From Candidatus Colwellia aromaticivorans (GTDB taxonomy: Bacteria; Pseudomonadota; Gammaproteobacteria; Enterobacterales; Alteromonadaceae), in NCBI RefSeq assembly GCF_003333305.1, contig NZ_QOLD01000070.1, positions 62,001 through 126,000 of the forward strand: a DNA stretch of 64,000 nt, written 5' to 3'. The notes under the pieces were generated by a model, which was not told the DNA's origin, did not search any database, and worked only from the letters and a program-made list of their open reading frames with translations. Numbering within the stretch: position 1 is the first letter of the stretch; each line of letters begins with the position of its first letter. Below are positions 3,426-45,977 of the stretch, one piece after another. Both the position numbers and the translations under genes were made by a program.

Positions 3426-3504
3426 TAGAAGCTTATAACTTTCTATTTAAAATTAAAAAATGAGTTAGCGTTAACTACTAGGCATTAGTCATCAATAACA
3501 ATAC

Positions 3505-3538
3505 AAACGGCAAGTAACTAAGTTACTTGCCGTTTTTT
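3505..3538 (+). terminator. Rho-independent terminator-like hairpin
   Basis: A perfect 15-bp inverted repeat (AAACGGCAAGTAACT and its complement) separated by one base is followed by a run of T. It lies 500 bp after the S9 peptidase gene and 200 bp before hpf. It could serve either strand because the stem begins with AAA. Confidence 0.75.
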
Positions 3539-3740
3539 CTTTTGTCGCTTTTGGTCTGATCAGTTGTAGCCTTATTTCTTTACTCATTAGTTTTTTATTA
3601 GCATTTTTCATGCCCAAAATAGGCCAAAGATTTGGTTACATTTAATTGCATTTATCTACCATTTTTTTATTGCATTTTTATGACTGATGGAGGATTATGA
3701 AATTGAAGATAAAGTCAAAGATAACAAAAGAGGTAAGACT

Positions 3741-4076: not shown

Positions 4077-4078
4077 CT

Positions 4079-4243
4079 TATACCAGTTTCATTAATTAAG
4101 TGATCTATTTTATACGTAGGAAAAACGGTCAAATACAAGGCACTTTTTTCAATAACTAGTTGTTCTAGCTATTAAATAAATAACGAAGTAGTAGGTCGTT
4201 TTAACAAGTAGAAATGATCACATAGTTAGTGATATTGGTATTA
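4079..4243. repeat. 165-bp terminal-inverted-repeat element of a second family
   Basis: The left end TATACCAGTTTCATTAATTA...GTGATC and the right end (reverse complement TAATACCAATATCACTAACT...GTGATC) are imperfect inverted repeats of about 26 bases. The element follows the hpf stop codon directly. The inside is AT-rich and non-coding. It differs in ends and interior from the TATACCCGT family. Confidence 0.7.
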
Positions 4244-4304
4244 TACCAAGACTAGTGAAATGCTTGTAATAGCGTAAAGCGTTACAAGCAAAACACCTCA
4301 ATAA

Positions 4305-4338
4305 AAAAGGCTGTACTATTTAAATGGTACAGCCTTTT
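4305..4338. terminator. Bidirectional terminator between hpf and metH
   Basis: The hairpin has arms AAAAGGCTGTACTATTT and AAATGGTACAGCCTTTT, flanked by A-rich and T-rich tracts on the two sides. It can end the metH transcript (minus strand) and transcripts from hpf. A second, smaller hairpin (GCTTGTAA/TTACAAGC) sits at 4262-4289. Confidence 0.8.
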
Positions 4339-4386
4339 ACTTATCTGACTTATTCAGCTCTCAGGTTCATATTACTCTAGTTCATA

Positions 4387-9364: not shown

Positions 9365-9629
9365 TATACCCGTTACCATTCAATATGCAGGTTTCAGAGT
9401 GCTTGAGCGATTTCAATTCAAGGCGCTGTGATGTAATAATGGTTACTTCCTTATAAATCACAGCAACGATGAAGTGATATTGCTCAAGCCCTTCTTCGAT
9501 GGGTTTAAAAGTAATTTATGCAGCGTTATTAAATTAAAGAATGGAACAACCATTCTATAAATTTAATGCCTTACTTAAATGGCTTTTAATTCCCACTGAA
9601 ATCACGCACTTTGAATGATTACGGGTATA
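9365..9629. repeat. 265-bp MITE-like element, copy 2
   Basis: Same ends and same 265-bp length as 257-521, with about four base differences. It fills most of the metA-recA spacer and ends next to the recA terminator. The remaining spacer (9234-9364) holds nothing else that I recognise. Confidence 0.88.
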
Positions 9630-25526: not shown

Positions 25527-27035
25527 ATGGAGTTCAGTATAAAAAGCGGTAGCCCAGAAAAACAACGCAGTGCCTGTATTGTTGTTGGTGTGTTTGAACC
25601 ACGCCGCCTTAGTGCAACAGCAGAACAGCTTGATGAAATTAGTGAAGGCTATATCAGTAATCTTTTGCGTAAAGGTGATTTAGAAGGTAAATCAGGACAG
25701 ATGTTATTATTACATCATGTACCTAATATTCTTAGTGAGCGTGTTTTATTAGTTGGCTGTGGTAAAGAGCGTGAGCTAGACGAACGCCAATATCGCCAAA
25801 TTATCAATAAAACCATTAATACTCTTAATGAAACTGGCTCAATGGAAGCGGTATGCTTTTTATCAGAATTACATGTTAAAGGCCGTGATACCTATTGGAA
25901 AGTTCGCCAAGCAGTAGAAGCAACTCAAGATGGTTTGTATAGCTTTAATAGTTTAAAAACTCATAAAGAAGAGCCACGTAGACCGTTGCGTAAAATTGTA
26001 TTCAATGTACCAACACGCCGTGAGTTACCTATTGGTGAACGTGCAATTAATCACGCATTAGCCATTTCAGAAGGTATTACTACCTGTAAGAATGTCGCGA
26101 ATATGCCACCAAACATTTGTAACCCTGCATACTTAGCTGAACAAGCAAAAATTCTTGATAGTGAATATGAAAATGTCACAACCACCATAGTGGGTGAGCA
26201 AGAAATGGAAGCATTAGGCATGGGCGCTTATTTAGCGGTTGGCCGTGGCTCTGTTAACGAATCATTAATGAGTATCATGTCTTACAATGGCATTGATGAT
26301 GACTCTAAACCGCTTGTATTGGTTGGTAAAGGCCTTACTTTCGACAGTGGTGGTATTTCATTAAAACCCGGCGCTGGCATGGATGAAATGAAATACGACA
26401 TGGGCGGAGCTGCTGGCGTTTTAGGTGCTATGCATGCGTTGGCTGAATTAAACTTACCTATCAAAGTTATTGGTATTTTAGCTGGCTGTGAAAACATGCC
26501 AAGCAGCAATGCTTATCGCCCTGGTGACATTTTAACCACAATGTCAGGACAAACTGTAGAAGTGTTAAACACTGATGCCGAAGGTCGTTTGGTACTTTGT
26601 GACGCGTTAACCTATGTTGAACGTTTCGACCCTGAGTCTGTTATTGACGTTGCCACATTAACTGGCGCTTGTGTGGTTGCATTAGGCAAACATGCCACAG
26701 GTTTATTAAGCTCGCATAACCCGCTTGCTCATGAGTTACTTAATGCTTCAGAGCAAAGTGGTGACAGAGCATGGCGCTTACCGTTATGGGATGATTATCA
26801 AGAACAAATTGAAAGCCCATTTGCGGATATGAGTAATGTTGGCGGTAAAGGTGCTGGCACTATTACTGCGGCATGTTTCTTAGCACGCTTCACTAAAAAA
26901 TATAATTGGGCACATTTAGATATTGCTGGTACTGCATGGCGCAGTGGTGGTAAAGATAAAGGCTCAACGGGTCGTCCAGTTAGCATGTTAACGCAATTTT
27001 TGCTTAACAAAGCAGGGCAAGAGCAAGGCGAGTAA
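25527..27035 (+). CDS. pepA: Leucyl aminopeptidase PepA
   Basis: A 502-residue M17 aminopeptidase, the length of E. coli PepA (503). It releases N-terminal residues from peptides in the cytoplasm and in enterobacteria also binds DNA at Xer sites. The two-metal centre is seen in [16 protein letters not shown] (Lys and Asp ligands), YDMGGAAG and the signature NTDAEGRL. I start it at 25527, where AAAGGAGAG precedes ATG and the protein begins MEFSIKSGS; an in-frame codon at 25431 would add a non-homologous 32 residues. It is followed by a tandem repeat and holC. Confidence 0.96.
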
Positions 27036-27104
27036 CTCGAGTTTCGAGTTTCGAGTTTCGAGTTTCGAGTTTCGAGTTTCGAGTTTCGAGTTTCGAGTTT
27101 CGAG
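27035..27104. repeat. Tandem heptamer repeat TTTCGAG, nine perfect units
   Basis: Nine uninterrupted copies of TTTCGAG run from 27042 to 27104, preceded by ACTCGAG. The array starts at the last base of the pepA stop codon and ends 20 bp before the holC start codon. A few copies of the same heptamer occur at 22932-22953 after the RDD gene. Pure tandem heptamers are prone to slippage. Confidence 0.95.
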
Positions 27105-27124
27105 AAAATGATAAGAGCATATGC

Positions 27125-27586
27125 ATGCAAACTCAAGTAATGTTTTACATATTATCTGATGATAAACAAAGCGCTGATGCTAAAGATACAAGCTCAGCGT
27201 TTTATCATGCCTGTTTACAAGCAAGCTACTTTTATCGCCAAAATCAACGGGTATTTATTTATACTCAAGATCAAAAAAGCGCAGAACAAATAGATGAAAT
27301 GTTATGGGCATTTGACAGTGATAGTTTTGTACCCCATAACTTATCTGGTGAAGGCCCTAAACAAGGCGCAGCGGTTGAAATTAGCCACCAAGCTTCACGT
27401 AGCCGTCGCCCTGTTTTGATTAACTTATCTAGTACTGTGCCCGATTTTGCCAATCAATTTCAATTTATTGTTGATTTTGTCCCAAGTGACGAAACATTGA
27501 AACAACTTGCCCGAGAACGATTCAAAGCTTGTCGCCAACGAGGTTTTCAAGTTGATAACCAAGCAGCAGTAGCAGAAACACAATAA
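27125..27586 (+). CDS. holC: DNA polymerase III chi subunit
   Basis: A 153-residue HolC protein, the clamp-loader accessory subunit that links psi to single-stranded-DNA-binding protein. The start VMFYILSDD, the core YFYRQNQRVFIYTQDQKSAEQIDEMLW and the FVPHNLSGEGP and PVLIN segments match the family. Either of two ATGs (27121 or 27125) could be chosen; only 27125 is in frame. It sits between pepA and valS, the standard order. Confidence 0.93.
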   Translation: MQTQVMFYILSDDKQSADAKDTSSAFYHACLQASYFYRQNQRVFIYTQDQKSAEQIDEMLWAFDSDSFVPHNLSGEGPKQGAAVEISHQASRSRRPVLINLSSTVPDFANQFQFIVDFVPSDETLKQLARERFKACRQRGFQVDNQAAVAETQ

Positions 27587-30683: not shown

Positions 30684-31517
30684 TTACTTTGCATCTTGTT
30701 GCACTATATTTCTTCGATAAATAATGTGGTACACAATACCTACCAGCAAGCTGCCACCAACCAAATTACCTAAAATAACTGGCAGTAAATTACTAAAAAA
30801 ACCAGCCCAAGTAACGGTTTCTGCCGCTAGGTTTGTCGTGTTAAAAGCCTTTTCCAGCATAGCTAGAGGGATAATATACATATTAGCAATACAGTGCTCA
30901 AAACCTGCAGCAACAAAAGCAGAAATAGGAAAAACAATCGCAACCGCCTTATCAATGACGGTTCGTCCTGCAAAAGCCATCCATACAGCCATGCAAACTA
31001 ACACATTACATAGTACCCCTTTAAAAAAAGCACTCCAAAATGGCATAGCGGTTTTTACCATAGCTATCTTTATATATTGCTCAGCAATTGCGCCATTATT
31101 CATTTCAGTATGACCTGAAAGAAACACCAATACCGCCAACCCCGCCGCACCAATGAAGTTAGCCAAGCAAACTATAATCCAGTTTCTTAATAATTCTAAG
31201 CTAGATATTTTTCCCTCTGCCCACGCCATTGCTAACAAATTATTACCGGTAAATAATTCTGCTCCTGCAACAATCACTAAAATTAACCCTAAAGAAAATG
31301 CCAATCCGCCAACCACTTGACCAGTAGCAAAACCAATAGAGGCATCTGATTTAATCAACACAAAATAAAGAGCACCCAAACCGATAAATGCACCTGCAAG
31401 TACACCTAACATCAACAAAGATAGAAACGGCAAACGCACTTTAGCAACACCAACATTATTTACCCGTTGGGCTATTTCTTTGGGAGAGAAAGCATCAGAG
31501 CCAAATATTTCAGACAT
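30684..31517 (-). CDS. Formate/nitrite transporter family channel
   Basis: A 277-residue FNT protein. Six membrane helices are evident, with GAELFTGNNLLAMAWAEGKI, FIGAAGLAVLVFLSG, NVLVCMAVWMAF and GFEHCIANMYIIPLAML as family landmarks; the conserved His in GFEHCIANM is part of the pore gating triad region. FNT channels pass formate, nitrite or hydrosulfide as pentamers in the inner membrane. It is divergent from the formate dehydrogenase genes, so formate is the likely cargo, by inference. An FNR-type site lies between the two. Confidence 0.9.
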   Translation of the reverse strand: MSEIFGSDAFSPKEIAQRVNNVGVAKVRLPFLSLLMLGVLAGAFIGLGALYFVLIKSDASIGFATGQVVGGLAFSLGLILVIVAGAELFTGNNLLAMAWAEGKISSLELLRNWIIVCLANFIGAAGLAVLVFLSGHTEMNNGAIAEQYIKIAMVKTAMPFWSAFFKGVLCNVLVCMAVWMAFAGRTVIDKAVAIVFPISAFVAAGFEHCIANMYIIPLAMLEKAFNTTNLAAETVTWAGFFSNLLPVILGNLVGGSLLVGIVYHIIYRRNIVQQDAK

Positions 31518-31598: not shown

Positions 31599-31612
31599 CT
31601 GATTTAGATCAT
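31599..31612. promoter_or_regulatory. FNR-type operator between the FNT channel and formate dehydrogenase genes
   Basis: CTGATTTAGATCAT has the perfect dyad halves TGAT and ATCA around a four-base spacer, as in the FNR/CRP-family site TTGAT-N4-ATCAA. A TATACT at 31646-31651 lies about 40 bp from its centre on the formate dehydrogenase side. The same core occurs in inverse orientation at 43607-43620. Regulation by oxygen is inferred. Confidence 0.65.
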
Positions 31613-31691: not shown

Positions 31692-33782
31692 ATGTGCGCG
31701 GATCTCGTTAAAACAATCTGCCCATTTTGTGGGGTTGGTTGTGGTATTTGCTTAAAAGTAGATGAACAAGGACAGTTACTGAGTGTTGAACCACAACAAA
31801 ACCATCCCATAAGTCAGGGGAAACTCTGTGATAAAGGTTGGAGTACCGCTTACGCCATCAACTCAGATCAGCGCTTAACCCAGCCATTAAAGCGCATCAA
31901 CAAAAGCTTTTATCCTATTAGCTGGCAAGAAGCATTAACCACTATAGCCGATGAGCTAACCGCAATTATTGATGAGTCAGGTAGCCAAGCAGTCGGTGTT
32001 ATCAGCAGCGCTAGAGCCAGTAATGAAGATAACTATGCCGCTCAAAAGTTTGCCCGTGCGGTATTAAAAACCAATAATATTGATCATTGTGCTCGTATTT
32101 GCCACAGTCCTACGGTCGCCGGTCTAAAACAATCTTTAGGCTCTGGTGCTATGACCAATAGCGCCAAGGATATTCTTGAGACAGACTTAATGCTAGTTTT
32201 TGGTGCCGATCCCACCGAAAACCACAGTATTTTAGGTGGTCATATTATGCAAGCACATGCTCAAGGCACTGAACTGATTGTGGTTGACCCCAGAGTAACC
32301 CGCCTTGCCAAGCTAACCCCTATGCATTTACAACTTAAACTCGGCAGTAATATTGCCTTAATCAATGCATTATTACATGTCATTATTAAAGAACAATGGT
32401 TTGATCAACGCTTTGTTGAATCACGCACTCAAGGCTTTGAGCAACTAGCAAAACATGTCAAAGATATAACACCAGAGTCCGTAGAGAGCACCACTGGAGT
32501 CAGTGCTGAATTAATTCGAACCACGGCTAGGGCTTATAGCCATGCAAAACGTGCAATGATTTTCTATGGTATGGGCATTACCCAATATGTTAGCGGCACT
32601 AACAATGTTATCTCGTTGGCTAATTTAGCATTGACCTGCGGCCATATAGGTAAAGCAGGTACAGGCGTTAACCCGCTGCGGGGACAAAACAATGTGCAAG
32701 GAGCATGTGATATGGGGTGCTTACCCAATGTTTATCCTGGTTATCAAGCGGTAGCAGAATTAGAAAACCAAGAAAAGTTTAGCAAGGCTTGGGGGACTAA
32801 AGTAACACAACAGGCTGGCTTAACCTCACTTGGCATGACTAAAGCAGCTCAATCAGGCGATTTTCGCGCCTTACTACTTTTTGGTGAAGATCCTGTGGTA
32901 ACCGACCCCGATCAAAACCATGTGCAATCGTCTTTAAAGAATCTAGACTTATTTGTGGTAGCCGAACTAACAATGACAGAAACCGCCAAATTAGCTGATA
33001 TTATTTTGCCCGCAGCCTCTTTTGCCGAAAAAGACGGTACCTTTACCAATTGCGAGCGACGAGTACAAAAAGTAAATCAAGCCATAGCACCACTGGGTGA
33101 AGCTAAAGGTGATTGGCAGTGGTTACAGGCATTAGCGAAAGAAATGGGTAGTAAGTTGTTAAACTGGCAAAGCAGCGAGGATGTATTTAATGAAATGGCT
33201 GCACTAACTCCCCCTTATCAGGCGATGACTTACCAAAAAATTACTGATAACTCAGGCTTACAATGGCCATGCACCAACGAAACACCTAATGGCACAACCA
33301 TTTTGCATCAGCAAAGTTTTCCTATTGGTAGAGCACGATTTATTTGCGTTAATCAAGTTGATATTGATGAATCAACCGATGACAACTATCCACTATTATT
33401 AACCACTAACCGCCTACATTTTCACTATGGTTGTGGCTCAATGACACGTAACTCTCCCCTATTAGAACGGGAAACACCACCGGGCGTGCTATTTATTAAC
33501 CCTATTGATGCGAAAGCGTTGAATATTAATCACCAAGCACCTGTCAGTATTAAATCTCGTCGCGGCTATGTTGAAACCCGCGCCATGTTTAGTGATGATG
33601 TACCTGTAGGCTTAGTGTCTATGCCTTATCATTTTAAAGAAGCACCCTCTAACCAACTCACTAATACCGCACAAGATCCTGTCACTAAAATGCCAGAGCT
33701 TAAAGCTTGCGCCGTTGTTGTAGCTGCTTTAGCCAAAGACCAAGTACCTAAAACGATACAACAATTACAGGAGGGTAAATAA
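31692..33782 (+). CDS. Molybdopterin formate dehydrogenase catalytic subunit (Cys type)
   Basis: A 696-residue molybdopterin oxidoreductase of the formate dehydrogenase clade. The N-terminal [4Fe-4S] site is formed by C10, C13, C17 and C46. The active-site stretch ARICHSPTVAGLKQSLGSGA corresponds to the Sec region of E. coli FdhF, and residue 137 is encoded by TGC, so this is a cysteine enzyme needing no selenium. The C-terminal MopB domain (about 575-690) with TTNRLHFHYGCGSMTRNSPL is intact. No extra ferredoxin domains are present. It starts a three-gene operon with one base to the next gene, and it would oxidise formate to CO2 in the cytoplasm. Confidence 0.88.
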   Translation: MCADLVKTICPFCGVGCGICLKVDEQGQLLSVEPQQNHPISQGKLCDKGWSTAYAINSDQRLTQPLKRINKSFYPISWQEALTTIADELTAIIDESGSQAVGVISSARASNEDNYAAQKFARAVLKTNNIDHCARICHSPTVAGLKQSLGSGAMTNSAKDILETDLMLVFGADPTENHSILGGHIMQAHAQGTELIVVDPRVTRLAKLTPMHLQLKLGSNIALINALLHVIIKEQWFDQRFVESRTQGFEQLAKHVKDITPESVESTTGVSAELIRTTARAYSHAKRAMIFYGMGITQYVSGTNNVISLANLALTCGHIGKAGTGVNPLRGQNNVQGACDMGCLPNVYPGYQAVAELENQEKFSKAWGTKVTQQAGLTSLGMTKAAQSGDFRALLLFGEDPVVTDPDQNHVQSSLKNLDLFVVAELTMTETAKLADIILPAASFAEKDGTFTNCERRVQKVNQAIAPLGEAKGDWQWLQALAKEMGSKLLNWQSSEDVFNEMAALTPPYQAMTYQKITDNSGLQWPCTNETPNGTTILHQQSFPIGRARFICVNQVDIDESTDDNYPLLLTTNRLHFHYGCGSMTRNSPLLERETPPGVLFINPIDAKALNINHQAPVSIKSRRGYVETRAMFSDDVPVGLVSMPYHFKEAPSNQLTNTAQDPVTKMPELKACAVVVAALAKDQVPKTIQQLQEGK

Positions 33783-33783
33783 T

Positions 33784-34803
33784 ATGGAAATTTATCATCT
33801 TGATGATTTGAGCTTACTACAGCAACATTTACTGGCTCAATATCAACTTTATCAAGTGGTCAAAAATGACGATAAACAATGCTCTTGGCAACAGCAAACT
33901 AAAGAAAGAAATGAACCGCTTATTGCTGAGCTACCCCAAAGCTCTGCGAAAGATTTTTTCTTTGCTGAGCATGAAAATTTACTGATCTTTAATGGTGAGT
34001 ATTTTCAAGAAACCTTACCCACACCTGCACCTTTCGTATTATTTGGCATATTAAGCTGCGACCTCACCGCTATTAGTTACCAAGATCAGTTTTTTAAAGA
34101 CGACCCTTATTATCAAGCTAGGCGTCAACAATGCTTGTTGGTAGGGTTAGATTGTATTAAGCCTTGTCAGCAAGGTTTTTGTCCCACGGTAGATGCAGGC
34201 CCCGGAGTTAGAGAACACACTGCAGATATTATTTTGCACCCGCTAGAAAATCATCAATGGTTATTGATCAGTACTAACGATAAAGGCACTGAAGCAATTA
34301 AAGGATTATCACTTAAAACATGTCACTGGCATTTTTTAACTCAACGAGATCTCACTTTACACCAATGTGAGCAAGAATTTACCGATGACAGCGATATAAC
34401 TCAAGCTATAGATAAACTGAATAATGGTGAAGTGAGTGATTCATTTTGGCAACAACTGGCGGTACAGTGCCTTGGTTGCTCTGGTTGCACCACCTTATGC
34501 CCTACTTGTTCATGTTACGGCACTCGTAGTATTACCGATGAATCAGAAGACAAGAAGGTGATAACACAGCAACGTTTTTGGGATTCTTGTCTTTATGAAG
34601 GATTTCAACGAGAAGCTAGTTTTCACAATCCATCCGCCGAAGCAGGTAAAAGAGTGCAGCGATTTTGGCAACATAAATTTGGCAACGAATTTTTTGCTGA
34701 ATTTAATCGTCATGGCTGTGTTGGTTGTGGTCGTTGTGAGCAAACTTGCCCAGGTGTTATTGGCGTACATAGTGTAATGAAAAGGATTAATAATAATGCT
34801 TAG
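33784..34803 (+). CDS. 4Fe-4S electron-transfer subunit, sulfhydrogenase-beta-like
   Basis: A 339-residue iron-sulfur protein of the HydB/anaerobic sulfite reductase A type. Two Cys-rich clusters stand out in the C-terminal half: LGCSGCTTLCPTCSCYG (about 235) and HGCVGCGRCEQTCPG (about 310), together two [4Fe-4S] sites, plus an N-terminal VLFGILSCDLTAI and CLLVGLDCIKPCQQGFCP segment. It would carry electrons between the formate dehydrogenase subunit and the flavoprotein encoded next. A strong ribosome site (CAGGAGGG) precedes it and it overlaps the next gene by eight bases. Confidence 0.85.
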   Translation: MEIYHLDDLSLLQQHLLAQYQLYQVVKNDDKQCSWQQQTKERNEPLIAELPQSSAKDFFFAEHENLLIFNGEYFQETLPTPAPFVLFGILSCDLTAISYQDQFFKDDPYYQARRQQCLLVGLDCIKPCQQGFCPTVDAGPGVREHTADIILHPLENHQWLLISTNDKGTEAIKGLSLKTCHWHFLTQRDLTLHQCEQEFTDDSDITQAIDKLNNGEVSDSFWQQLAVQCLGCSGCTTLCPTCSCYGTRSITDESEDKKVITQQRFWDSCLYEGFQREASFHNPSAEAGKRVQRFWQHKFGNEFFAEFNRHGCVGCGRCEQTCPGVIGVHSVMKRINNNA

Positions 34804-35650
34804 TCATATTCCTGATGCTATTGAATTAGTAGATTATATTGATGATGGTGAACAGGCTCGTCATTATCAATTTCGATTAGTAAACATAAACAAACCCAGT
34901 GAAAAAAACACTAATAACAACACCGCTAAGCACCATTGGCAAGATGCACAACCTGGACAGTTTTTCATGCTTAATGTGCCTAGTATTGGCGAAGCCGCCT
35001 TTACTTTTACTGAGCCTCCCAACGAGCAAGGAGAATTTCGCGCCTTAATTCGTCAAATGGGAAAACTGACCACTACCTTATTTACTCTGCCCAAAGGTGA
35101 CATTTTGGGCGCACGCGGACCTTTTGGTCGAGGTTGGCCACTAGAAAAAATTAATAAGAAAAATATTATCATTATTGCCGGTGGCTGTGGTTTAGCACCA
35201 CTTGTTAACTTAATTGATAGTCTCATTGATAACTTGACAGCTAGCCAACAATTAGTCTTAATTTATGGAGCCCAAAACAAGCAGGCACAACTATTAACGA
35301 CTGAACGTGAACGCTGGCAACAGCATATTAAGATTTATAACAGCTTAGATGAAATCAATGATCAATACACGTTAGTCGAAAATGAAAGCCAAGGTACACC
35401 ACTTGATATAGTAGACATCGCACTTGCTACTTTTATCAAACCAGCTACAACAGCACTATTGTGTGGTCCTGAAATAATGATGAACAGCGCGGCAAAAAAA
35501 TTAGTTGATAATGGCATTGCCAGTGATGATATTTTTCTCGCCATTGAAAGGCGCATGCACTGCGCTATTGGGCTATGCGGTCATTGTTATTTAAATGAAC
35601 GCTATGTTTGTAAAAATGGTCCTACTTTTAGTTGGCAAGAGTTACAGTAA
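34796..35650 (+). CDS. FAD/NAD(P)-binding oxidoreductase subunit, sulfhydrogenase-gamma-like
   Basis: A 284-residue ferredoxin-reductase-type flavoprotein with a C-terminal [2Fe-2S] site. The FAD-binding barrel covers about 1-105, and IIIAGGCGLAPLVNLIDSL (about 122-140) is the NAD(P)-binding start. LLCGPEIMM lies near 225, and the last 35 residues hold MHCAIGLCGHC and VCKNGP, the iron-sulfur ligands of HydG/PyrK-type proteins. With its two neighbours it forms a likely soluble NAD(P)-linked formate dehydrogenase. The three-gene set converges on the PEP synthase gene with a 14-bp gap. Confidence 0.87.
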   Translation: MLSHIPDAIELVDYIDDGEQARHYQFRLVNINKPSEKNTNNNTAKHHWQDAQPGQFFMLNVPSIGEAAFTFTEPPNEQGEFRALIRQMGKLTTTLFTLPKGDILGARGPFGRGWPLEKINKKNIIIIAGGCGLAPLVNLIDSLIDNLTASQQLVLIYGAQNKQAQLLTTERERWQQHIKIYNSLDEINDQYTLVENESQGTPLDIVDIALATFIKPATTALLCGPEIMMNSAAKKLVDNGIASDDIFLAIERRMHCAIGLCGHCYLNERYVCKNGPTFSWQELQ

Positions 35651-35664
35651 ATAACCCCGCTTAA

Positions 35665-38115
35665 TTACTGTAACTCTTGTTCAGCTTTGGCAATATGCAC
35701 ACTAGCTTTTGCGACAGAGTCTGGATTTAAGGAAATAGAGTCAATACCAGATTTTACCAAAAACTCTGCAAATTCAGGATGGTCTGACGGTGCTTGTCCA
35801 CAGATCCCCACTTTACAATGGTGCTGATGAGCCACTTTGATCACTTGCGCTATCATGCTTTTCACCGCCTCATCTCTCGCATCAAATAACGGCTTTAATT
35901 CGACTGAGTCTCGATCTATGCCCAGTACTAATTGGGTTAAATCATTACTGCCAATGGAAAATCCATCAAAACGCTGAGCAAATTTATCGGCTAAAATAAT
36001 GTTCGAGGGAATTTCACACATAACATAAACCTGCAAACCATTAACACCACGGGTTAGCCCAGCTTCTGCCATTACAGCCAGCACTTTGTCAGCCTCACTT
36101 GGCGTACGGCAAAAAGGGATCATAACAATAATATTATCAAAGCCCATCTCTTGGCGCGCCTTAATAATCGCTTGGCATTCAAGCTTAAAAGCAGCTCGAT
36201 AAAGCGGGTGATAATAACGTGAAGCGCCACGAAGCCCTAGCATGGGATTTTCTTCTTCAATTTCAAAAAACTCCCCGGCCAATAACCCGCGGTATTCATT
36301 TGATTTAAAATCTGACATACGCACTATCACAGGTTTCGGGTATTGTGAGGCCGCAATTTTACCGACACCTAAGGCGAGCTTATCAACAAAGTAATCAGGG
36401 GGATTTTGATAACCTTGGGTTAATTGAGCAATTTTGGCTCTGACTTTTTCGTCAGTCACTTTTTCAGGCTCTATCAAGGCCATAGGGTGTAAACAAATTT
36501 GGCTGGAAATAATAAATTCAATACGCGTTAAACCAATGCCGGCTACAGGCAATGACCACCACCTAAAAATACCATCAGGCATTGCAGCATTGATCATAAT
36601 ATCTGTTTTAGTTTTTGGTATATCCGCTAAATTAACCGCGCTTTCTTCAAAAGCTAACTTACCTTGATAAACCTTTCCTATCGATCCTTCCGCGCAGCTT
36701 AACGTCACAGCTTGATCATTGTGCAATAGTTGTGTGGCATTTTCACAACCCACTATAGCGGCTACTTTTAACTCTCGACTAACAATAGCCGCATGGCTAG
36801 TTGGTCCGCCACTGTCAGTGATTATACCCGCTGCTTTACGCATGATTGGCACCCAATCAGGATCAGTTCTTTGCGTCACTAAAACGGCCCCATCTGGAAA
36901 CTGTTCAATATCTTCTGGGCTATCTATTTTAAATACTTCACCACTAGCAATAGCGCTACCAACACTTGCCCCTTGCACCAATACAGTGGACTTTTCTTTT
37001 AGTTTATAATTTACTAGTACTGAGCCCACTTTTTGTGATTCCACCGTTTCAGGCCTAGCCTGAACGATATAAAGTTGCTGAGTATTAGTGTCTTTCGCCC
37101 ACTCCATATCCATAGCGCAGCCATAATGTTGCTCTATTTTTACTGCCCAGCGAGCAAGTGTTAATATTTCATCGTCACTCAGTACTAATGCTACCCTTTC
37201 CTTTTCGCTAGTATCACAGGTAGTGGTTGGATCTGGTGATGATGAGGAAAACAACATTTTGACTAGCTTGCTACCACGCTGCTTTTCAATGATAGGGATA
37301 AACTTTTCTTGAGAAAGTGAGGCTTGAGAAGCAGAGCTTTGACCAAGTAAGGGCTTATATACCATAAAGCTATCGGGTGTTACTGTGCCCTTAACAATCG
37401 TTTCACCCAAACCCCAAGCACCATTAATCACAACCACATCAGGAAAACCTGTTTCAGTATCAAGACTAAACATCACCCCAGCACACTGGGAATTAAGCAT
37501 TTGTTGTATGCCAACAGAAAGTGCCACTTGCTGATGACTAAAACCTTGCTCTTGCCGATAAACAATAGCTCTATCAGTATAAAGTGAGGCAAAACATTGA
37601 CGACAGGCTTCAAGTAGATCAATTTCACCCGTGATATTTAAATAACTTTCTTGCTGACCAGCAAAACTCGCCTCAGGTAAATCTTCTGCTGTCGCAGAGC
37701 TTCTTACCGCAACGCTGATATTCTCTTGCGCCTTTTCTTTAGACAGGTGCTTTGAAAGCTGTTGATAAGCTTTAACAATTTCTGCTTGCTGCGCCGCTGT
37801 AAACTCACCTTGGCTGATCAACTTTCTAATCGCACTTCCTGTTACCGCTAAGCTTTGAGCATCCGTAAAGTATTCTTGTAAGTGCTGCTTAATAGGTTCA
37901 TCAAGATTATTTTGCTTCAAAAAATCACGAAATAGTTGAGCACTAGTAGCGAAGCCTGTCGGCACAGCAATATCATCATGCGCCATAGCCGTGATCATTT
38001 CGCCTAGGCTAGCATTTTTACCCCCTACTTTAGCAACATCAGCAATGGTTAATTCATCAAACCAATAAATGTATGGGCTATTCTTATGATCAGAAATATC
38101 GGTGCTATCAACCAT
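35665..38115 (-). CDS. ppsA: Phosphoenolpyruvate synthase
   Basis: An 816-residue enzyme converting pyruvate, ATP and water to PEP, AMP and phosphate. The ATP-grasp domain occupies about 1-360, with VGGKNASLGEM and VAVRSSATAEDLPEASFAGQ. The swivelling phosphohistidine domain has GGPTSHAAIVSREL, and the C-terminal PEP/pyruvate barrel ends with VGICGQAPSDHPEFAEFLV, holding the catalytic Cys. It is slightly longer than E. coli PpsA (792). It follows the acyl carrier protein gene by 48 bp on the same strand, so it can be the last gene of that operon, though AAGGAA before its ATG allows independent translation. Confidence 0.95.
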   Translation of the reverse strand: MVDSTDISDHKNSPYIYWFDELTIADVAKVGGKNASLGEMITAMAHDDIAVPTGFATSAQLFRDFLKQNNLDEPIKQHLQEYFTDAQSLAVTGSAIRKLISQGEFTAAQQAEIVKAYQQLSKHLSKEKAQENISVAVRSSATAEDLPEASFAGQQESYLNITGEIDLLEACRQCFASLYTDRAIVYRQEQGFSHQQVALSVGIQQMLNSQCAGVMFSLDTETGFPDVVVINGAWGLGETIVKGTVTPDSFMVYKPLLGQSSASQASLSQEKFIPIIEKQRGSKLVKMLFSSSSPDPTTTCDTSEKERVALVLSDDEILTLARWAVKIEQHYGCAMDMEWAKDTNTQQLYIVQARPETVESQKVGSVLVNYKLKEKSTVLVQGASVGSAIASGEVFKIDSPEDIEQFPDGAVLVTQRTDPDWVPIMRKAAGIITDSGGPTSHAAIVSRELKVAAIVGCENATQLLHNDQAVTLSCAEGSIGKVYQGKLAFEESAVNLADIPKTKTDIMINAAMPDGIFRWWSLPVAGIGLTRIEFIISSQICLHPMALIEPEKVTDEKVRAKIAQLTQGYQNPPDYFVDKLALGVGKIAASQYPKPVIVRMSDFKSNEYRGLLAGEFFEIEEENPMLGLRGASRYYHPLYRAAFKLECQAIIKARQEMGFDNIIVMIPFCRTPSEADKVLAVMAEAGLTRGVNGLQVYVMCEIPSNIILADKFAQRFDGFSIGSNDLTQLVLGIDRDSVELKPLFDARDEAVKSMIAQVIKVAHQHHCKVGICGQAPSDHPEFAEFLVKSGIDSISLNPDSVAKASVHIAKAEQELQ

Positions 38116-38137
38116 GATACTGTTCCTTATTTTTAGT

Positions 38138-38160
38138 TATACCCGTTCCACTTAAAGATG
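38138..38160. repeat. Solitary terminus of the TATACCCGT element family
   Basis: TATACCCGTTCCACTTAAAG is almost the same as the left end of the element at 44489. No matching right end is near. It sits in the 48-bp gap between the ACP and PEP synthase genes, so it may be the scar of an excised or decayed element. Confidence 0.5.
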
Positions 38161-38163
38161 CTT

Positions 38164-38421
38164 TTACCTTAGCTTTTCAGATAGGTAATTCAGCATTTTG
38201 TTAAAGCTATTCACTTGGGTATAATCACCCTCAGCAATACTGACACCCGTAGATTTTTTTAAGGCAATAAGGTAATTAAGAAAATCCATGGAATCTAAAT
38301 CACATTCTTCACGAATATCTTCATCCATATCAATGTCGTCTTGTTCAATTTCCGGTGCAACTTCTTGAATAGCTTCTAGTATAATTTGCTGAATGTTTTG
38401 TTGAATATGTTTAGTGTTCAT
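38164..38421 (-). CDS. Acyl carrier protein-like protein
   Basis: An 85-residue acidic helical protein with the phosphopantetheine attachment motif DLDSMDFL (Ser44), the position and size of an acyl carrier protein. Acidic stretches EIEQDDIDMDEDIREE precede it. Its start codon overlaps the end of the E2 gene by four bases, so it is translated with the dehydrogenase subunits. It is not in a fatty acid synthesis cluster. What it carries is unknown; a role as acyl acceptor or donor for the adjacent E2 or ligase is an inference. Confidence 0.85.
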   Translation of the reverse strand: MNTKHIQQNIQQIILEAIQEVAPEIEQDDIDMDEDIREECDLDSMDFLNYLIALKKSTGVSIAEGDYTQVNSFNKMLNYLSEKLR

Positions 38422-39710
38422 AGACGTTCCGGTTTTTGTAATTGTTTGGATAAATGGTTCAGAAACTTAGCCGCTAACATGCCATCAATCACTCGATGAT
38501 CGGCACTTAAAGAAGCAGTTAACATCGCCCTTTCCTTAACTTCATCATTAACTAATTGCAGCACTTTCCTAACTTTGCCAAACCCCAAAATAGCAACCTG
38601 AGGTGGGTAAATAATGCCTAAAACACTGTCGGCACCGCGCTCGCCCATGTTAGTTACAGTGATAGTTGCATCAGTTAACTCTGAGCTGCGTAAATGTCCA
38701 TTTCGACTACGTGCGGTAATATCTCGCAAGCCTTGCATAAGCTCACTCACAGACAAGTTATCAACATCATGTATCGCAGGAACCACCAAACCACCTTGAC
38801 GTAAACTAATGACATTACCAATATTAATGGTGCTTGCTTGCTCGAAAGCATTACCTTGATAAAAACCGTTGAGCTTTGGATACTTAACCAAAGATATCGC
38901 CATGGCTTTTAACAATAACGCCAGCAATAGCACATATTGTTCTGGTGGCGCTGCTTTATTTTGTTGCTGTAACCAGTATTGTACGGCGCTAATATCAATC
39001 TCTAAACTTAAATAAAAATGGGGAATTTCTTGTTTGGATTTAGCCATTGCTGCTGCGATAGCACTGCGCATATTTTGTTCGTGATTATCAGCACTATCAT
39101 GATTACTGCTTTTTGTTTTTGGTTTTGACAAAGCACTTAAATCAGCTAACAAAATAGCGCCTTGAGGACCACTACCTTGAATGCCCGATAAGTCTAATTG
39201 CTGCTCTTGAGCCAACCGACGGACAATAGGGGAAGCGTTAATACCAATGACCTTAATTTGCTCATTAACGAGATAATTATCTTCATTTTGAACTGTTGTC
39301 TCATTTGCTGTTGCCACAATAGTTTCCGCTGGTGTAGCTATTTTTTTTGATGGTTCAGCTTTTGATGGTTCAGCTTTTGATGGTTCAGCTTTTGATGGTT
39401 CAGCTTTTGATGGTTCAGCTTTTGATGGTTCAGTTAAAGCAAGGCGTGCCAATACAGTGCCAACTTGTACTTTAGCCACAGGCGCTACTAAAATTTCTGC
39501 GATAGTGCCAGCTGAATACACTTCCATGTCTATCGCACCTTTTTGTGTTTCTAATACGGCAATAATGTCACCACTATTAACGTGATCTCCCTCTTTAACT
39601 AGCCACTGTGTCAAAGTACCTTCGGTCATATCAGCGCCCAGTGAAGGCATAGTAATATCTTCGAGCGCTAATGTGCTTGTTAGTCCTTTATCAATAGGTG
39701 TTTCAGCCAT
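38418..39710 (-). CDS. 2-oxoacid dehydrogenase E2 (dihydrolipoamide acyltransferase)
   Basis: A 430-residue E2. The lipoyl domain is at about 15-92 with the lipoylated Lys57 in ETQKGAIDM. A linker of six EPSK repeats follows (about 93-123), then a peripheral subunit-binding domain (ASPIVRRLAQEQQLDLSGIQ, about 158-195) and the catalytic core ending with ADHRVIDGMLAAKFL, which keeps the His and Asp of the HxxxDG motif. It is therefore complete, with one lipoyl domain. The gene overlaps E1beta by one base and the ACP gene by four. No E3 gene is in the operon. Confidence 0.92.
   Translation of the reverse strand: MAETPIDKGLTSTLALEDITMPSLGADMTEGTLTQWLVKEGDHVNSGDIIAVLETQKGAIDMEVYSAGTIAEILVAPVAKVQVGTVLARLALTEPSKAEPSKAEPSKAEPSKAEPSKAEPSKKIATPAETIVATANETTVQNEDNYLVNEQIKVIGINASPIVRRLAQEQQLDLSGIQGSGPQGAILLADLSALSKPKTKSSNHDSADNHEQNMRSAIAAAMAKSKQEIPHFYLSLEIDISAVQYWLQQQNKAAPPEQYVLLLALLLKAMAISLVKYPKLNGFYQGNAFEQASTINIGNVISLRQGGLVVPAIHDVDNLSVSELMQGLRDITARSRNGHLRSSELTDATITVTNMGERGADSVLGIIYPPQVAILGFGKVRKVLQLVNDEVKERAMLTASLSADHRVIDGMLAAKFLNHLSKQLQKPERL
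39346..39435. repeat. 15-bp in-frame tandem repeat in the E2 gene
   Basis: Six units of TTTGATGGTTCAGCT (the last with one change) encode the linker repeat AEPSK on the minus strand. Five of the six units are identical at DNA level, pointing to recent expansion by slippage. Linker length could vary between strains without shifting the frame. Confidence 0.93.
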
Positions 39711-40693
39711 TAGCGTGCCGCCATAATAGCTTGTGCTGCAGTTACAATTTGCTCTACTTGTGGCAGTGCAGCTTGCTCAAGATGACTAGGGTAAGGAATG
39801 GGAACTTCAGCCGTACAAAGTCGCTTAACAGGTGCATCTAAGTGCCAAAAAGCTTGCTCCATTATAATTGCGCTAATCTCCCCAGCTAAACTTCCCGTAA
39901 GCCAAGCTTCATCAATAATAATGGCTCTATGGGTTTTGGTAACACTGGCAATTATTGTTTTAGTATCTAACGGACGCAAACACCGTAAATCAACGACTTC
40001 TGCACTAATATTTAAATCTTTAAGCTGCTTAGCTGCTGCCAACGCCTTACCTAAGCTGCCACCATAAGTGATCAAACTGACATCGGTTCCTTGCTGGCGA
40101 ATTAAGGCTTTTTCCATGCTCGCTTCACTCTGCTCTAAGACCTCGCCACTAGTATTTAACAACATGACATGCTCAAAAATAATCACAGGATCGGGGTCAG
40201 CTAATGCCTGAATCAGCATGTGTCTTGCATCATTATGAGTTGCTGGGCTTAATACTTTTAAACCAGGAATATGAGCATAAAAATTTTCCCAGCTATGGGA
40301 ATGTTGCGCTGCAAGTTGTAAACCTGCGCCACAAGCCATACGAATAACCAAGGGCACATTTAGCTGCCCTCCTGACATATGGCGTAGTGTTGCTGCGCTA
40401 TTCACAATTTGATCCATCGCCAATAAACTAAAATTAACCGTCATCACCTCAATAATGGGGCGCATACCACCAAGCGCTGCGCCAACACCTACGCCAACAA
40501 ATCCCGATTCACACAAAGGCGTATCAATAATCCGCTTTGCGCCATAGCGTTCAAACAACCCTTTACTCACACCGTAACAGCCACCATAACGTCCAACGTC
40601 TTCTCCCATCAAAAATACTCGTTCATCATCAAGAAGTGCCTGTTCAATACCTGCCCGCAATGCTTCGCGATAAGTTAATACTTGCTCGCTCAT
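39710..40693 (-). CDS. 2-oxoacid (pyruvate) dehydrogenase E1 beta subunit
   Basis: A 327-residue E1beta. [17 protein letters not shown] (about 31-47), [21 protein letters not shown] and [20 protein letters not shown] are the conserved cofactor and E2-contact stretches; the C-terminal transketolase domain closes the active site. It pairs with the E1alpha encoded upstream, overlapping it by four bases. Pyruvate is the most likely substrate from overall similarity, but acetoin or a branched-chain acid cannot be excluded by eye. Confidence 0.92.
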
Positions 40694-41721
40694 AATTGCT
40701 CTCCTTGGCTTTTATTAGTTGCGTGACTTGTATTAGTAGATGACGCTGGCGGGCTATATACATCTTTTGCTAGATCCGATATTGGCTCCCACTGCCCTTG
40801 CTCAGCAAAATCGATGGCCGCTTGTATTTCAGCCTTGATCTCAGCTTCAATATTGCTAAGTTCTTCATCTTCTAAATGATTATTTTCTTTTAGCCAAGTA
40901 ATTAAGCGAATAACGGGGCCTTTTTCTTGCCATAATTTTACTTCAGCTTTGTCTCGATATAATTGACCATCAAAACTTGAATGTCCTCGAAAGCGATAAC
41001 TTTGGCACTCTAAAAAATACGGCTTATTGGTTTGTCTTATTTGCTCAACAGCTTTGATACTTGCCGCTTCAACATCGACAACATTCATACCATCAACCTG
41101 CTCTGCCGCCATGCCATAACTACTGGCTTTTTTAGCAATATTGGTTTCAGATTCTGACAGAGCAAGTGCTGTCCCCATAGCATAACGATTATTTTCACAA
41201 ACAAATAATACAGGCAACTTCCATAACACTGCCAGGTTCATCGCCTCATGAAACTCCCCTTCAGCAACCGCTCCCTCACCAAAAAAACACACTGTGAGTG
41301 CTTGTTTGTCTTGATTTTTATTTGCCATTGCCAAGCCAGCAGCTAAGGGTAATCCTCCTCCAACAATGGCATTACCACCATAAAAATTATGATTTTTATC
41401 GAAAAGGTGCATAGAGCCACCACGCCCTCGGCTACAACCATTAGTACGACCATACATTTCTGCCAAAATACTTTTCATTGATAAGCCACGCGCCAGAGCA
41501 TGACCATGCTCTCTATAAGTAGCAACGATGTTATCTTTAGCACTCAGCGCTGACATAACGCCAACCGCAATCGCTTCTTCACCAATATATAAATGTAAGA
41601 AACCACGAATTTTTTCTTGCCCATAAAGCTCTGCACATTTTTCTTCAAAGCGGCGAATACGTAACATTTGCTTAAGTTGAGCAAGTAAGTGCACTCTATC
41701 AAGATGTAATTTATGCTTCAT
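40690..41721 (-). CDS. 2-oxoacid (pyruvate) dehydrogenase E1 alpha subunit
   Basis: A 343-residue E1alpha carrying the TPP-binding motif that runs from [19 protein letters not shown] (Gly148-Gly150) to CENN (Asn177-Asn178). [20 protein letters not shown] (about 95-114) is typical of pyruvate and acetoin dehydrogenases, and [10 protein letters not shown] is the phosphorylation-loop region. It overlaps the upstream ligase gene and the downstream E1beta gene by four bases each, so five genes are translationally coupled. Confidence 0.92.
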
Positions 41722-43499
41722 TGTTCATCACTCTCTAAGGTTGATATATCGCCTTCAGGTAAACCGAGTTCTCGTGCTTTAAGTAAGCGCCGCATTATTT
41801 TTCCGCTACGGGTTTTAGGTAAGTTTTGTCGAAAGACTATTTCTTTGGGAGCAACAGCCGCACCTAATTTTTTACGGGCAAAGCCTTTAAGTTCTTTTTG
41901 TAATTGTTCACTCGGCTCCACGTCTGATTTTAACGTAACGTAAGCTTTAACAAGCTCTCCAGCAATATCATCCGGTATGCCTATAACGCCTACCTCAATC
42001 ACATCTTCATGTTCCATCAAGGCGCTTTCTACTTCAAAAGGACCAATTAAGTGACCCGATGATTTTATTAAGTCGTCTGCACGGCCAACAAACCAATAAT
42101 AACCTTGTTCATCTTTATAGGCTAAATCACCACTGAGATACCAACCTTGCTTAAAACAACGCTGGTATTTTTCATTTTGGTGTAGATAACCACGAAACAT
42201 CGATGGCCAGCCCTCCTTTAGCGCTAATTCACCGATCTCATTTGCGCGAGTTATCAGCTCTAATTTACCTTGCTTATCTTGTTGCTTATCTTGTTGCTTA
42301 TCTTGTAAAGAGTTTTCTTGCTTAGCACGTTTCACAATGCCTGCTTCAATGCCAGGTAAAGGCAAGCCCATAGAGCCGGGTTTAATTGGCATACTGGCAT
42401 AATTAGCGATCATTATTGCCCCCGTTTCGGTTTGCCACCAATTATCATGAAAAGGCAAGCCGAGAACTTGTTCGCTCCATATTACTGCTTCTGGGTTAAG
42501 TGGTTCACCAACACTGGCGATAAAGCGCAGGTTTGATAAATCATACTGTGCTCGTATGCCTTCTCCTGCTTTCATTAACAGTCGAATAGCGGTTGGCGCG
42601 CTATACCACACACTTACTTTTTGCTGCTCAAGTATGTGATACCAACGCTCTACTTCAAATTCTGCTTCATCAACGATCATGGTTGCGCCAAGGCATAAGG
42701 GTGCAATAATGCCGTAAGTAGTACCTGTGACCCAACCAGGATCAGCTGTACACCAGTAAATATCTGTCGCATGTAAATCAAGCGCATAATAAGCAGAGGA
42801 CTTATGTGCCAGTACGGCTTGGTGAACATGAACAACGCCTTTGGGTTTACCCGTGGTACCACTGGTGAAATGCAGTAAAGCCATATCCTCTGGCGATGTT
42901 TGCACACAAGCAAAACTTGCATCGGCGAGCGCCATTAATTCTGTTAGAGCATAACATCCGTCATCAAGTTCGCCTGAACCATCAATGAGTAAAACAGCTT
43001 TTAAATGAGGTAATTCTCGCCACCATTTCGCTACTTTTTTTCGATACAAACTCATAGTAGTTATAAGTACATTTGCCTCACCTATTTCCATGCGGGAACG
43101 AATAGGTTCAGGGCCAAAAGCGGAAAATAAAGGAGTAAATACTGAGCCCGCTTTTAACGTACCTAAAGCAGCAATGTATAACAAAGGTAAACGGCCTGCT
43201 AAGCTGAAAACACGATTCCCCTGTTCAAATCCAAGGGTATGTAACACACTAGCAAAACGACTGGTTTGCTTGGCTAAATCGAGATAAGTAAAATCAATAC
43301 TTTGGTTTTTCTTACCAAGCCAACGCAAGGCGACTTTATCTTCATTAGGGGTGTTTAAATGGCTATCGACAGCTTGATAAGCAATATTGGGCTGTTGTGT
43401 TTCATTCGGCCAATTAAAACCCTGATAGCATTCTTGATAATCAGTTAAATTTGTTACTTGGTTATTCTCGATAACTTTATTAATTATTTTTTTATTCAT
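41718..43499 (-). CDS. AMP-forming acyl-CoA synthetase, acetyl-CoA-synthetase-like
   Basis: A 593-residue ANL-superfamily ligase. The P-loop [18 protein letters not shown] (about 205), the [14 protein letters not shown] and [11 protein letters not shown] stretches and the C-terminal RSGKIMRRL with the acetylatable catalytic Lys resemble AcsA-type acetyl-CoA synthetases. It activates acetate or another short acid to its CoA ester, with AMP and pyrophosphate. Near residue 405 is an inserted QDK repeat. It is the first gene of the operon, has its own leader with an FNR-type site, and its function beside pyruvate dehydrogenase genes is unusual because both produce acetyl-CoA. Confidence 0.88.
42270..42305. 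repeat. 12-bp in-frame tandem repeat in the acyl-CoA synthetase gene
   Basis: Three perfect units of TTGCTTATCTTG encode QDKQ repeats on the minus strand, at a surface-loop position between two conserved synthetase motifs. Like the E2 linker repeat in the same operon, it preserves frame. Confidence 0.9.
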
Positions 43500-43606: not shown

Positions 43607-43620
43607 ATGATCTAAATCAA
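43607..43620. promoter_or_regulatory. FNR-type operator upstream of the synthetase-dehydrogenase operon
   Basis: ATGATCTAAATCAA has one mismatch to TTGAT-N4-ATCAA. Its reverse complement TTGATTTAGATCAT differs from the site at 31599-31612 by one base of 14. A TATACT on the minus strand at 43575-43570 lies about 39 bp from the site centre, a similar geometry to the formate dehydrogenase promoter. It is about 110 bp upstream of the first gene. Confidence 0.7.
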
Positions 43621-45268: not shown

Positions 45269-45329
45269 AATAACGTAAGGATAATCTCTTTTGAATTTAT
45301 ATATTGGGGTTGTTAATAAGGAATTTAAT

Positions 45330-45977
45330 ATGAAAATACTTACAAGATTTACTAGCATACTGTTTATTGCGCTTGCTGGCTTTTCCTATACAGCTCAAGC
45401 AACATTGATGTTAAGTCCTGGTGATTGTAATACTACTACTGATTGCTGGACTAGTAATACTACCTCTAACCTTGGTGCGGCAGGTATTTCCGAGCTAATT
45501 GGACAGACTGTCACTGATCTTTATAAATCGGACTTTGATGACGGAGCGGAGACGGGCTCGTTTGCACCTTCGTATGATACCGAGTTTACTAACTCAAATA
45601 CAGAGCCTAATGATGCATTATTGAGTTATATCGGCGACCCTTCAGACCCTTCAGAGACTTTACCTGTGATGAACTGCTCAGGTGCGCTTTCTTGTTTTCT
45701 TGAAGTAAAAGATGGCAAAAAAGAGCCAGCTGTCTATATTTTTGACATTTCAGGCTGGGATGGTTTGGAGATTGATATGGACGATTTCTGGCTAGTCGAG
45801 GATGGGAGTACTTCATCGGGTGCTATTTCACATGTAGCAATATGGGGATGTACTGATTGTGATGAAGGTCCTAACCCGCCGGGTGGCGGCCCTGTGCCTG
45901 AGCCGGCAACGCTGTTTCTATTTGCCAGTGCTTTGTTTGGCTTAGGTTGGCGCCAGCGTAAATCACTCATTAAATAG
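45330..45977 (+). CDS. PEP-CTERM sorted exported protein
   Basis: A 215-residue exported protein. The signal peptide is about 1-23 (KILTRFTSILFIALAGFSYTAQA). The mature part is acidic and holds paired cysteines (CNTTTDC, CSGALSC, CTDC). The C-terminus is a PEP-CTERM signal: VPEPATL, a hydrophobic helix and an RQRK tail, recognised by an exosortase that would move it to the surface or matrix. No exosortase gene is in the window. The start ATG at 45330 has AAGGA upstream; an in-frame TTG at 45291 adds nothing familiar. Precise function is unknown. Confidence 0.87.
   Translation: MKILTRFTSILFIALAGFSYTAQATLMLSPGDCNTTTDCWTSNTTSNLGAAGISELIGQTVTDLYKSDFDDGAETGSFAPSYDTEFTNSNTEPNDALLSYIGDPSDPSETLPVMNCSGALSCFLEVKDGKKEPAVYIFDISGWDGLEIDMDDFWLVEDGSTSSGAISHVAIWGCTDCDEGPNPPGGGPVPEPATLFLFASALFGLGWRQRKSLIK

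Follow-up and report, generated by a model that had tools for sequence, protein, structure and literature searches.

We analysed a 64,000-nucleotide stretch of DNA (the window), which belongs to contig C87 in the 3.75-Mb draft genome of Candidatus Colwellia aromaticivorans, and focused on a run of six minus-strand genes for an AMP-forming ligase of the acetate--coenzyme A (CoA) ligase type (ACS), the E1alpha, E1beta, and E2 subunits of a pyruvate dehydrogenase, an acyl carrier protein (ACP), and a phosphoenolpyruvate (PEP) synthase. The first five of these genes, in the order ACS-E1alpha-E1beta-E2-ACP, almost certainly constitute a real co-functional unit, while the PEP synthase is a lineage-specific partner. 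The genes, with one codon of special relevance, are as follows.

41718..43499, minus strand: ACS, acetate--CoA ligase-type AMP-forming ligase, gene 1 of the unit (NF003313, 879.5 bits; cut-off 729)
42048..42050, minus strand: codon for Leu484 of ACS, at the A8-motif position (Arg526 of S. enterica Acs), placed by alignment
40690..41721, minus strand: E1alpha, thiamine-dependent pyruvate dehydrogenase subunit (TIGR03182, 445 bits; cut-off 394)
39710..40693, minus strand: E1beta (NF006667, 393 bits; cut-off 321)
38418..39710, minus strand: E2 acyltransferase, with a single lipoyl domain (Lys57), an E3-binding domain, and a catalytic domain (His405, Asp409)
38164..38421, minus strand: dedicated ACP (Ser44) (PF00550, 26.6 bits; cut-off 20.8)
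35665..38115, minus strand: PEP synthase (pyruvate, water dikinase), lineage-specific partner (NF005057, 1082 bits; cut-off 598)

The consecutive genes from ACS to ACP overlap by 4, 4, 1, and 4 bases, and a 48-base gap precedes the PEP synthase gene. This layout is the one given in the original prediction, and the gene families named there were confirmed by models; the scores of E1alpha and E1beta above the cut-offs of their named models identify both as pyruvate-type subunits.

The conservation of the arrangement was determined in 81 loci, namely, the best 80 of 314 E1alpha relatives by closeness to the window E1alpha and one Photobacterium plasmid. Many of them are metagenome bins, and by their record titles they represent Gamma-, Alpha-, and Betaproteobacteria, Campylobacterota, Acidobacteria, Bacteroidota, Actinomycetota, and others. 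The five-gene order was complete by similarity matches in 72 of the 81 loci, and in 73 with the inclusion of L085, whose divergent ACP was read by hand as an open reading frame (ORF) with an ACP motif directly behind E2. Contig ends cut seven loci, of which L028, L041, L053, L057, L059, and L089 stop before the ACP and L086 starts at E1alpha. Wherever the DNA extends beyond E2 an ACP follows it (75/75), and in 66 of 74 loci the E2 and ACP genes overlap by exactly 4 bases, this junction being the only one at which overlaps were counted across the loci. The ACP gene is bound to the E2 gene as tightly as a subunit gene. An actual E2-ACP fusion, which would have been direct proof, was confirmed in no case, the candidates at L071 and L073 turning out to be overlapping frames. 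In 16 or more of the 81 loci (L011, L014, L016-L021, L027, L031, L035, L046, L074, L078, L079, and L091), a single frame of about 670 residues encodes both E1alpha and E1beta, and on plasmids L127 and L135 the two are annotated as one 1998-base gene.

Since the 81 loci had been chosen by similarity, two further searches were made, one starting from the ACP and the other from the ligase. A profile built from 58 cassette ACPs was searched against 398 Pseudomonadota genomes, and some match was listed for 222 of them. It found 14 places scoring 84.8 to 116.8 bits, the next best scoring 52.4, and when the top 30 were examined, E2 and E1beta adjoined all of the 14 strong places and none of the 16 next places fetched. 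The NF003313 model exceeded its cut-off for seven ligases in 200 Pseudomonadota genomes, all seven lying beside E1 genes. By these figures (14/398 and 7/200), the unit is present in about 3.5% of the genomes sampled; the two samples come from the same phylum and overlap. The recurrence of the five-gene order across several phyla, together with the finding that every strong ACP-only match adjoins E2, shows that the arrangement is not due to chance. The distances of ligase, E1beta, E2, and ACP were correlated as well (r of 0.73 to 0.82 for 68 loci plus the window), a result obtained with no control and partly reflecting shared species history.

The distribution of the unit is patchy, since a strong E2 match was found in only 4 of 147 relatives (the own genome included) and in none of the 20 further genomes listed from the same genus. 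Copies also reside on alphaproteobacterial, betaproteobacterial, and actinomycete plasmids, so the unit is probably horizontally mobile. Uniqueness of the synteny to this strain, which the original prediction had named as an outcome that would overturn it, is thus not what was found: the five-gene order is widespread, though patchy. The prediction of a six-gene set fared differently. While its first five genes recur widely, a census of neighbours in 91 cassette loci found a PEP synthase match near the unit in only 19, spread over several separate lineages, one match being a 6% stub (L017, 13631-13777), and the six-gene unit was rejected. The close relatives L017 and L013, the latter with no PEP synthase match, both keep the five-gene unit and a formate dehydrogenase (FDH) module. 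A 20th match, at control locus L134, is probably ptsP.

The carrier has the intact Ser44 that had been predicted, and this residue is kept in 76/76 cassette ACPs. Structure prediction, at high confidence (pLDDT 90), gave a helical carrier in which Ser44 opens helix II, and solved ACPs of the four-helix fold headed the structure matches, with E-values no better than 0.0027. The protein is not of the AcpP type used in fatty acid synthesis (FAS): the best NCBIfam ACP model reached 32.5 bits versus the 65 required, and the acidic character of helix II is lost. The mean net charge of this helix was +0.7 in the 76 cassette ACPs versus -3.8 in canonical AcpP (the 14 of 25 sequences left by a motif filter), and the Glu that 14/14 canonical ACPs have six residues beyond the first Asp of DSxD occurred in 0/76 cassette ACPs. 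A separate canonical-type ACP match was found in all 25 cassette genomes searched, in 22 of them over the cut-off. Judged from its sequence and modelled structure, the dedicated ACP looks like a working carrier, not one of the fatty acid type.

The lipoyl Lys57 and the HxxxD catalytic motif (His405 and Asp409) of E2 are present as claimed and were kept in 73/73 aligned cassette E2s. None of the NCBIfam E2 equivalog cut-offs was reached (best, TIGR01349, 252 bits versus 445), and the score for the AcoC-type acetoin dehydrogenase E2 was far lower than required (NF011457, 67.6 bits versus 307). At two positions the cassette E2s depart from the four other E2s of the genome, which share Arg247 and Asn368: position 247 was Leu, Cys, or Val in 73/73, and position 368 was mostly Tyr or Phe, with Asn kept in 2/73. 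The window E2 has Leu247 and Tyr368. The lack of a dihydrolipoamide dehydrogenase (E3) gene in the operon had been correctly noted but turned out to be no peculiarity, because a lipoamide dehydrogenase over the cut-off is encoded elsewhere in the own genome (C44:8542-9897, close to a 645-residue E2 frame) and in 28 of 29 cassette genomes in all (own included), the 29th, G158, scoring just below. A further E2 lies on the same contig beside a 717-residue E1-type frame (G000 C44:16423-18752).

The ligase exceeds the NF003313 cut-off, and the acetate-pocket motif WWQ[TS]ETG and the catalytic Lys567 were kept in 78/78 cassette ligases; its acyl substrate is therefore probably acetate, given the role of the pocket Trp. 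At the A8-motif position, by contrast, all 86 aligned cassette ligases have Leu (70) or Met (16), as do two shorter readings outside that alignment (one Leu, one Met), whereas Arg is found in 2/2 Bacillota AcsA proteins and in all but one of 23 sub-cut-off ligases examined (22 with Arg, 1 with Asn). The Arg needed for the CoA half-reaction in the Acs of M. thermautotrophicus (AcsMt) is thus missing from 86/86. According to PMC10455477, mutating that Arg damages the CoA half-reaction, the Ala variant being unsaturable for CoA and the Lys and Gln variants having a kcat lowered 130- to 326-fold. A second, sub-cut-off Acs-type match was present in five of the seven genomes with an over-cut-off ligase (as judged by score), and it probably covers acetate uptake. 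The annotation "acetate--CoA ligase" at these loci may not mean the textbook reaction.

Upstream of ACS lies a sequence, TTGATTTAGATCAT (43607-43620), with one mismatch from the FNR/FixK consensus. This box and the remaining features of the locus, which lie around the formate genes beyond the PEP synthase, are as follows.

43607..43620, minus strand: FNR/FixK-like box TTGATTTAGATCAT, upstream of ACS
34796..35650, plus strand: HydG/AsrB-like flavoprotein with NAD(P) binding, probably the diaphorase subunit (below the cut-offs of all named models)
33784..34803, plus strand: HydB/AsrA-like iron-sulphur subunit (named models below cut-off)
31692..33782, plus strand: FdhA, formate dehydrogenase catalytic subunit (TIGR01591, 792 bits; cut-off 666)
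31599..31612, no strand assigned: FNR-like box CTGATTTAGATCAT, in the focA-fdhA interval (2 mismatches)
30684..31517, minus strand: FocA-type formate/nitrite channel (PF01226, 251 bits)

Among the 81 upstream regions, a set with close relatives (hence not independent) and estimated start codons, 11 had a box at 1 mismatch or fewer versus 0.76 expected from dinucleotide shuffles (largest of 100 shuffles, 3), and 29 had one at 2 mismatches or fewer versus 8.65 expected (largest shuffle, 15). The box CTGATTTAGATCAT has a 13-base core in common with that upstream of ACS; taken alone it is weak, since matches at its level of 2 mismatches are common in the window (107 versus 60 expected). We consider it very probable that the unit is under low-oxygen control.

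The FdhA-HydB-HydG module, on the plus strand, converges on the PEP synthase gene, and the FocA gene lies beyond it, divergent from fdhA. FdhA is accompanied by HydB/HydG-type subunits without a hydrogenase (31692-35650), and the FDH seems to use a sulfhydrogenase/AsrAB-type NAD(P) module; read by eye, the position expected for the metal ligand is occupied in FdhA by Cys and not by selenocysteine. HydB-HydG genes were found near the unit in 19 of the 91 loci, 13 times with FdhA and 6 times with a HydD/HydA-like [NiFe] hydrogenase, which scored below the cut-offs of the hydrogenase models and which presumably is group 3b-like. In genome G040, of another genus of the same family, the genes ACS-E1alpha-E1beta-E2-ACP-FocA-FdhA-HydB-HydG follow one another on one strand, with no PEP synthase among them. 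The own genome has an acetate kinase, and a search of it for pyruvate formate-lyase (PFL) gave no match, so here the combined action of the pyruvate and formate dehydrogenases could take the place of PFL.

In seven of the nine Campylobacterota loci (L038, L057, L062, L064, L068, L077, and L086), the unit adjoins genes for lipoyl synthase and an LplA/LipB-type transferase, and in six of these also one for a lipoamide dehydrogenase, as if a lipoylation kit had travelled with the unit; these assignments come from models at L077 (for the transferase also at L038) and from similarity elsewhere. Several of the plasmid copies are flanked by genes for universal stress proteins, Hsp20, and a Crp/Fnr regulator. 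Universal stress proteins and Hsp20 as a rule were rejected, each occurring in 9 of 91 loci, a count made with queries from some of the same loci and with no background rate. Upstream of the unit in the Vibrio-group loci L016, L017, and L079 is a protein of the carrier-adenylation-acyltransferase type; in L016, where its domains were checked, it has 941 residues (3286-6111) with carrier, AMP-binding, and acyltransferase domains, and another E2 lies at 121-1275. A ketosynthase III-type C-terminal domain is encoded about 8 kb from the unit in L132. Grouping of the ORFs, judged mostly by eye, revealed no biosynthetic group recurring beside the unit across lineages. Elsewhere in the window, identical pairs of 14-base motif matches with equal spacing point to a DNA element repeated at 295-379 and 9403-9487. 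Flanked by plus-strand genes on either side, an ORF of the minus strand (26798-27136) reads NSKLETR over and over and represents a short intergenic tandem repeat, and 45291-45977 encodes a protein that looks secreted and bears a PEP-CTERM sorting motif (PF07589).

We propose, with a probability of roughly 0.38, that the unit is a low-oxygen pyruvate-to-acetate module in which acetyl groups are exchanged between E2, the ACP, and the ligase and which runs toward acetate and ATP. E1 and E2 would oxidize pyruvate and leave acetyl on the lipoyl arm of E2, which the shared lipoamide dehydrogenase would reoxidize, yielding NADH; the acetyl would then pass from E2 to the dedicated ACP, and the AMP-forming ligase would take it from acetyl-ACP, mainly toward acetate and ATP, with the ACP replacing or bypassing CoA between E2 and the ligase. 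Disposal of NAD(P)H would fall to the neighbouring HydB-HydG module, which here and in relatives would act with the formate dehydrogenase and formate channel to turn CO2 into exported formate, and in other lineages with the group 3b-like [NiFe] hydrogenase to turn protons into H2.

Acetylation of the ACP by E2, with the ligase moving acetyl between ACP and AMP, is the simplest reading of an E2-linked carrier that is not of the FAS type, given the precedent of QncL, QncN, and QncM (and, by homology, SclQ1-4), which reportedly put a C2 unit on a free ACP via thiamine, lipoyl, and acyltransferase domains (PMC6335953). An acyl transfer from E2 to the ACP was already among the possibilities raised in the original prediction, and it gains from the ACP-only search, the 66/74 4-base overlaps, and this precedent; we give the ACP an even chance of accepting acetyl from E2. 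That the ligase works with the ACP appears a little doubtful. Operation of the ligase in reverse, also foreseen, fits the formate and hydrogen partners and the low-oxygen boxes, and a net direction toward acetate and ATP would follow from the ability of these partners to spend NADH from pyruvate, although the two directions seem to us about equally plausible. As for the anaerobic route linking pyruvate, acetate, and PEP that had been suggested, low oxygen, pyruvate, acetate, and formate are supported, whereas the PEP branch is not general, its synthase being lineage specific. The strictest form of the proposal, a CoA-independent, energy-conserving path from the lipoyl arm of E2 via the ACP to the AMP-forming ligase, giving acetate and ATP from AMP and pyrophosphate (PPi), we regard as unlikely.

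Several observations weigh against an ACP-based module running toward acetate. E2 retains canonical catalytic residues. In the ligase, the equivalent of Arg584, which meets the CoA 3'-phosphate, was kept in 86/86 (it is Lys in the two Bacillota AcsA proteins), so CoA may still bind. Loss of the A8 Arg need not abolish the use of CoA either, because in Macs the position is occupied by Lys461, which is dispensable (PMC10455477). The change from Arg to Leu or Met may be one event in one clade, and loss of Arg191 was dropped as a cassette trait since the gap is also present in B. subtilis AcsA. At L084 (Planobispora), E1, E2, and ACP occur with no ligase within 10 kb upstream; in most cassette loci no formate or hydrogenase genes were seen in the DNA stretches examined; and the listed Vibrionaceae copies have 3 or more mismatches to the FNR box. 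AckA was found in 23 of 25 cassette genomes, so another route to acetate and ATP usually exists, and PFL coexists with the unit in 9 of 25, for which reason a general substitution for PFL was rejected. Finally, acetyl-ACP, phosphopantetheinylation of the carrier, and the direction of the flow are all inferred.

The canonical E2, the acetate pocket, catalytic Lys, and Arg584 equivalent of the ligase, and the use of CoA by Macs without an A8 Arg (PMC10455477) would also suit a second, low-oxygen pyruvate dehydrogenase making acetyl-CoA, with the ACP as a structural or regulatory E2 subunit carrying no acetyl in the main flow and the ligase serving acetate recovery or the conversion of acetyl-CoA, AMP, and PPi into acetate and ATP. 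A purely structural ACP would not need Ser44, which is nevertheless invariant, all 14 strong ACP-only matches sit in the unit, and acetate recovery is probably the task of the second, ordinary-type Acs; we therefore hold this CoA-based explanation to be improbable, if worth keeping in view. The Campylobacterota loci, with their lipoyl synthase and transferase and mostly a lipoamide dehydrogenase, bring to mind another role for the ACP, that of a dedicated octanoyl donor for the lipoyl domain of E2, quick lipoylation being needed under low oxygen. Lipoyl synthase and transferase were, however, found in only 7 of the 91 cassette loci, and because helix II of the ACP is non-acidic and the pocket of the ligase is of the acetate type (78/78), neither the fatty acid enzymes nor the ligase offers an obvious means of loading octanoyl, which makes such a role rather remote.

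Acetyl-ACP formed by E2, the ligase, or both could instead prime the synthesis of a fatty acid, polyketide, or storage polymer. Related sets of E1, E2, and ACP load the carrier in secondary metabolism (PMC6335953), and the carrier-adenylation-acyltransferase type protein at L016, L017, and L079 and the ketosynthase III-type domain at L132 are in keeping with this. Yet no single biosynthetic group recurs across lineages, and energy metabolism is what the low-oxygen boxes and the partners for formate and hydrogen suggest, leaving a building-block function with a small likelihood only. Least credible to us is acetate assimilation, in which the ligase would activate acetate, the FDH or hydrogenase would oxidize formate or H2, and PEP synthase would feed gluconeogenesis: the sequence does not fix the direction of ligase or FDH, and PEP synthase is a recurrent partner, but the pyruvate dehydrogenase would be superfluous, its reversal with NADH being strongly unfavourable, and a second Acs-type match exists elsewhere in the genome.

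The pyruvate-to-acetate module with acetyl exchange on the ACP, if true, would be an unrecognized fermentation branch, apparently controlled by low oxygen, in which an E2 is accompanied by a carrier of its own and by an acetate ligase that is altered; in its strictest, CoA-independent form, with an FDH or hydrogenase sink, it would amount to a redox-balanced, oxygen-regulated fermentation of pyruvate that is kept apart from the CoA pool and has spread across phyla. Few enzyme complexes have been studied as thoroughly as pyruvate dehydrogenase, and CoA is regarded as its acceptor. The unit raises the questions of whether a 2-oxoacid dehydrogenase of primary metabolism can use an acyl carrier protein and whether an AMP-forming ligase can conserve energy from acetyl-ACP. 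We found no account of the five-gene unit in openly licensed PubMed Central papers, although one may exist elsewhere.

The unit resembles the pyruvate dehydrogenase complex of the alpha2beta2 E1 type (TIGR03182) in having E1alpha, E1beta, and an E2 that combines lipoyl, E3-binding, and catalytic domains, and it differs in that E3 is encoded outside the operon, in its AMP-forming ligase and dedicated ACP, and in E2 positions 247 and 368. The ligase resembles AcsA of the B. subtilis type (NF003313/PRK04319; solved as 9g79) in its score over the cut-off, acetate-pocket Trp, and catalytic Lys but not in its Leu or Met at A8 or its surroundings, since two Bacillota plasmid acsA genes adjoin the acetoin-utilization gene acuC and a GNAT acetyltransferase, whereas the ligase of the unit adjoins pdh genes. 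With FAS AcpP the ACP has in common the four-helix fold and the Ser at the start of helix II, though not the acidic helix. The closest likeness for E1, E2, and ACP genes occurring together is to QncN/QncL/QncM and SclQ1-4 of quinocarcin and scleric acid biosynthesis, with their E1 halves, lipoyl/acyltransferase E2, and free ACP, a comparison made from the description in PMC6335953. There, the sets belong to antibiotic clusters, with glycolyl-ACP as a building block and a proposed use of ketose phosphate, while the unit has an acetate-type ligase and an E3-binding domain. The group 3b-like HydBGDA hydrogenases and the FDH-HydBG modules, neighbours in 6 and 13 of the 91 loci, respectively, are optional and lie outside the five-gene unit. 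In its parts, the unit consists of a pyruvate dehydrogenase, a ligase of the AcsA type, and an ACP.

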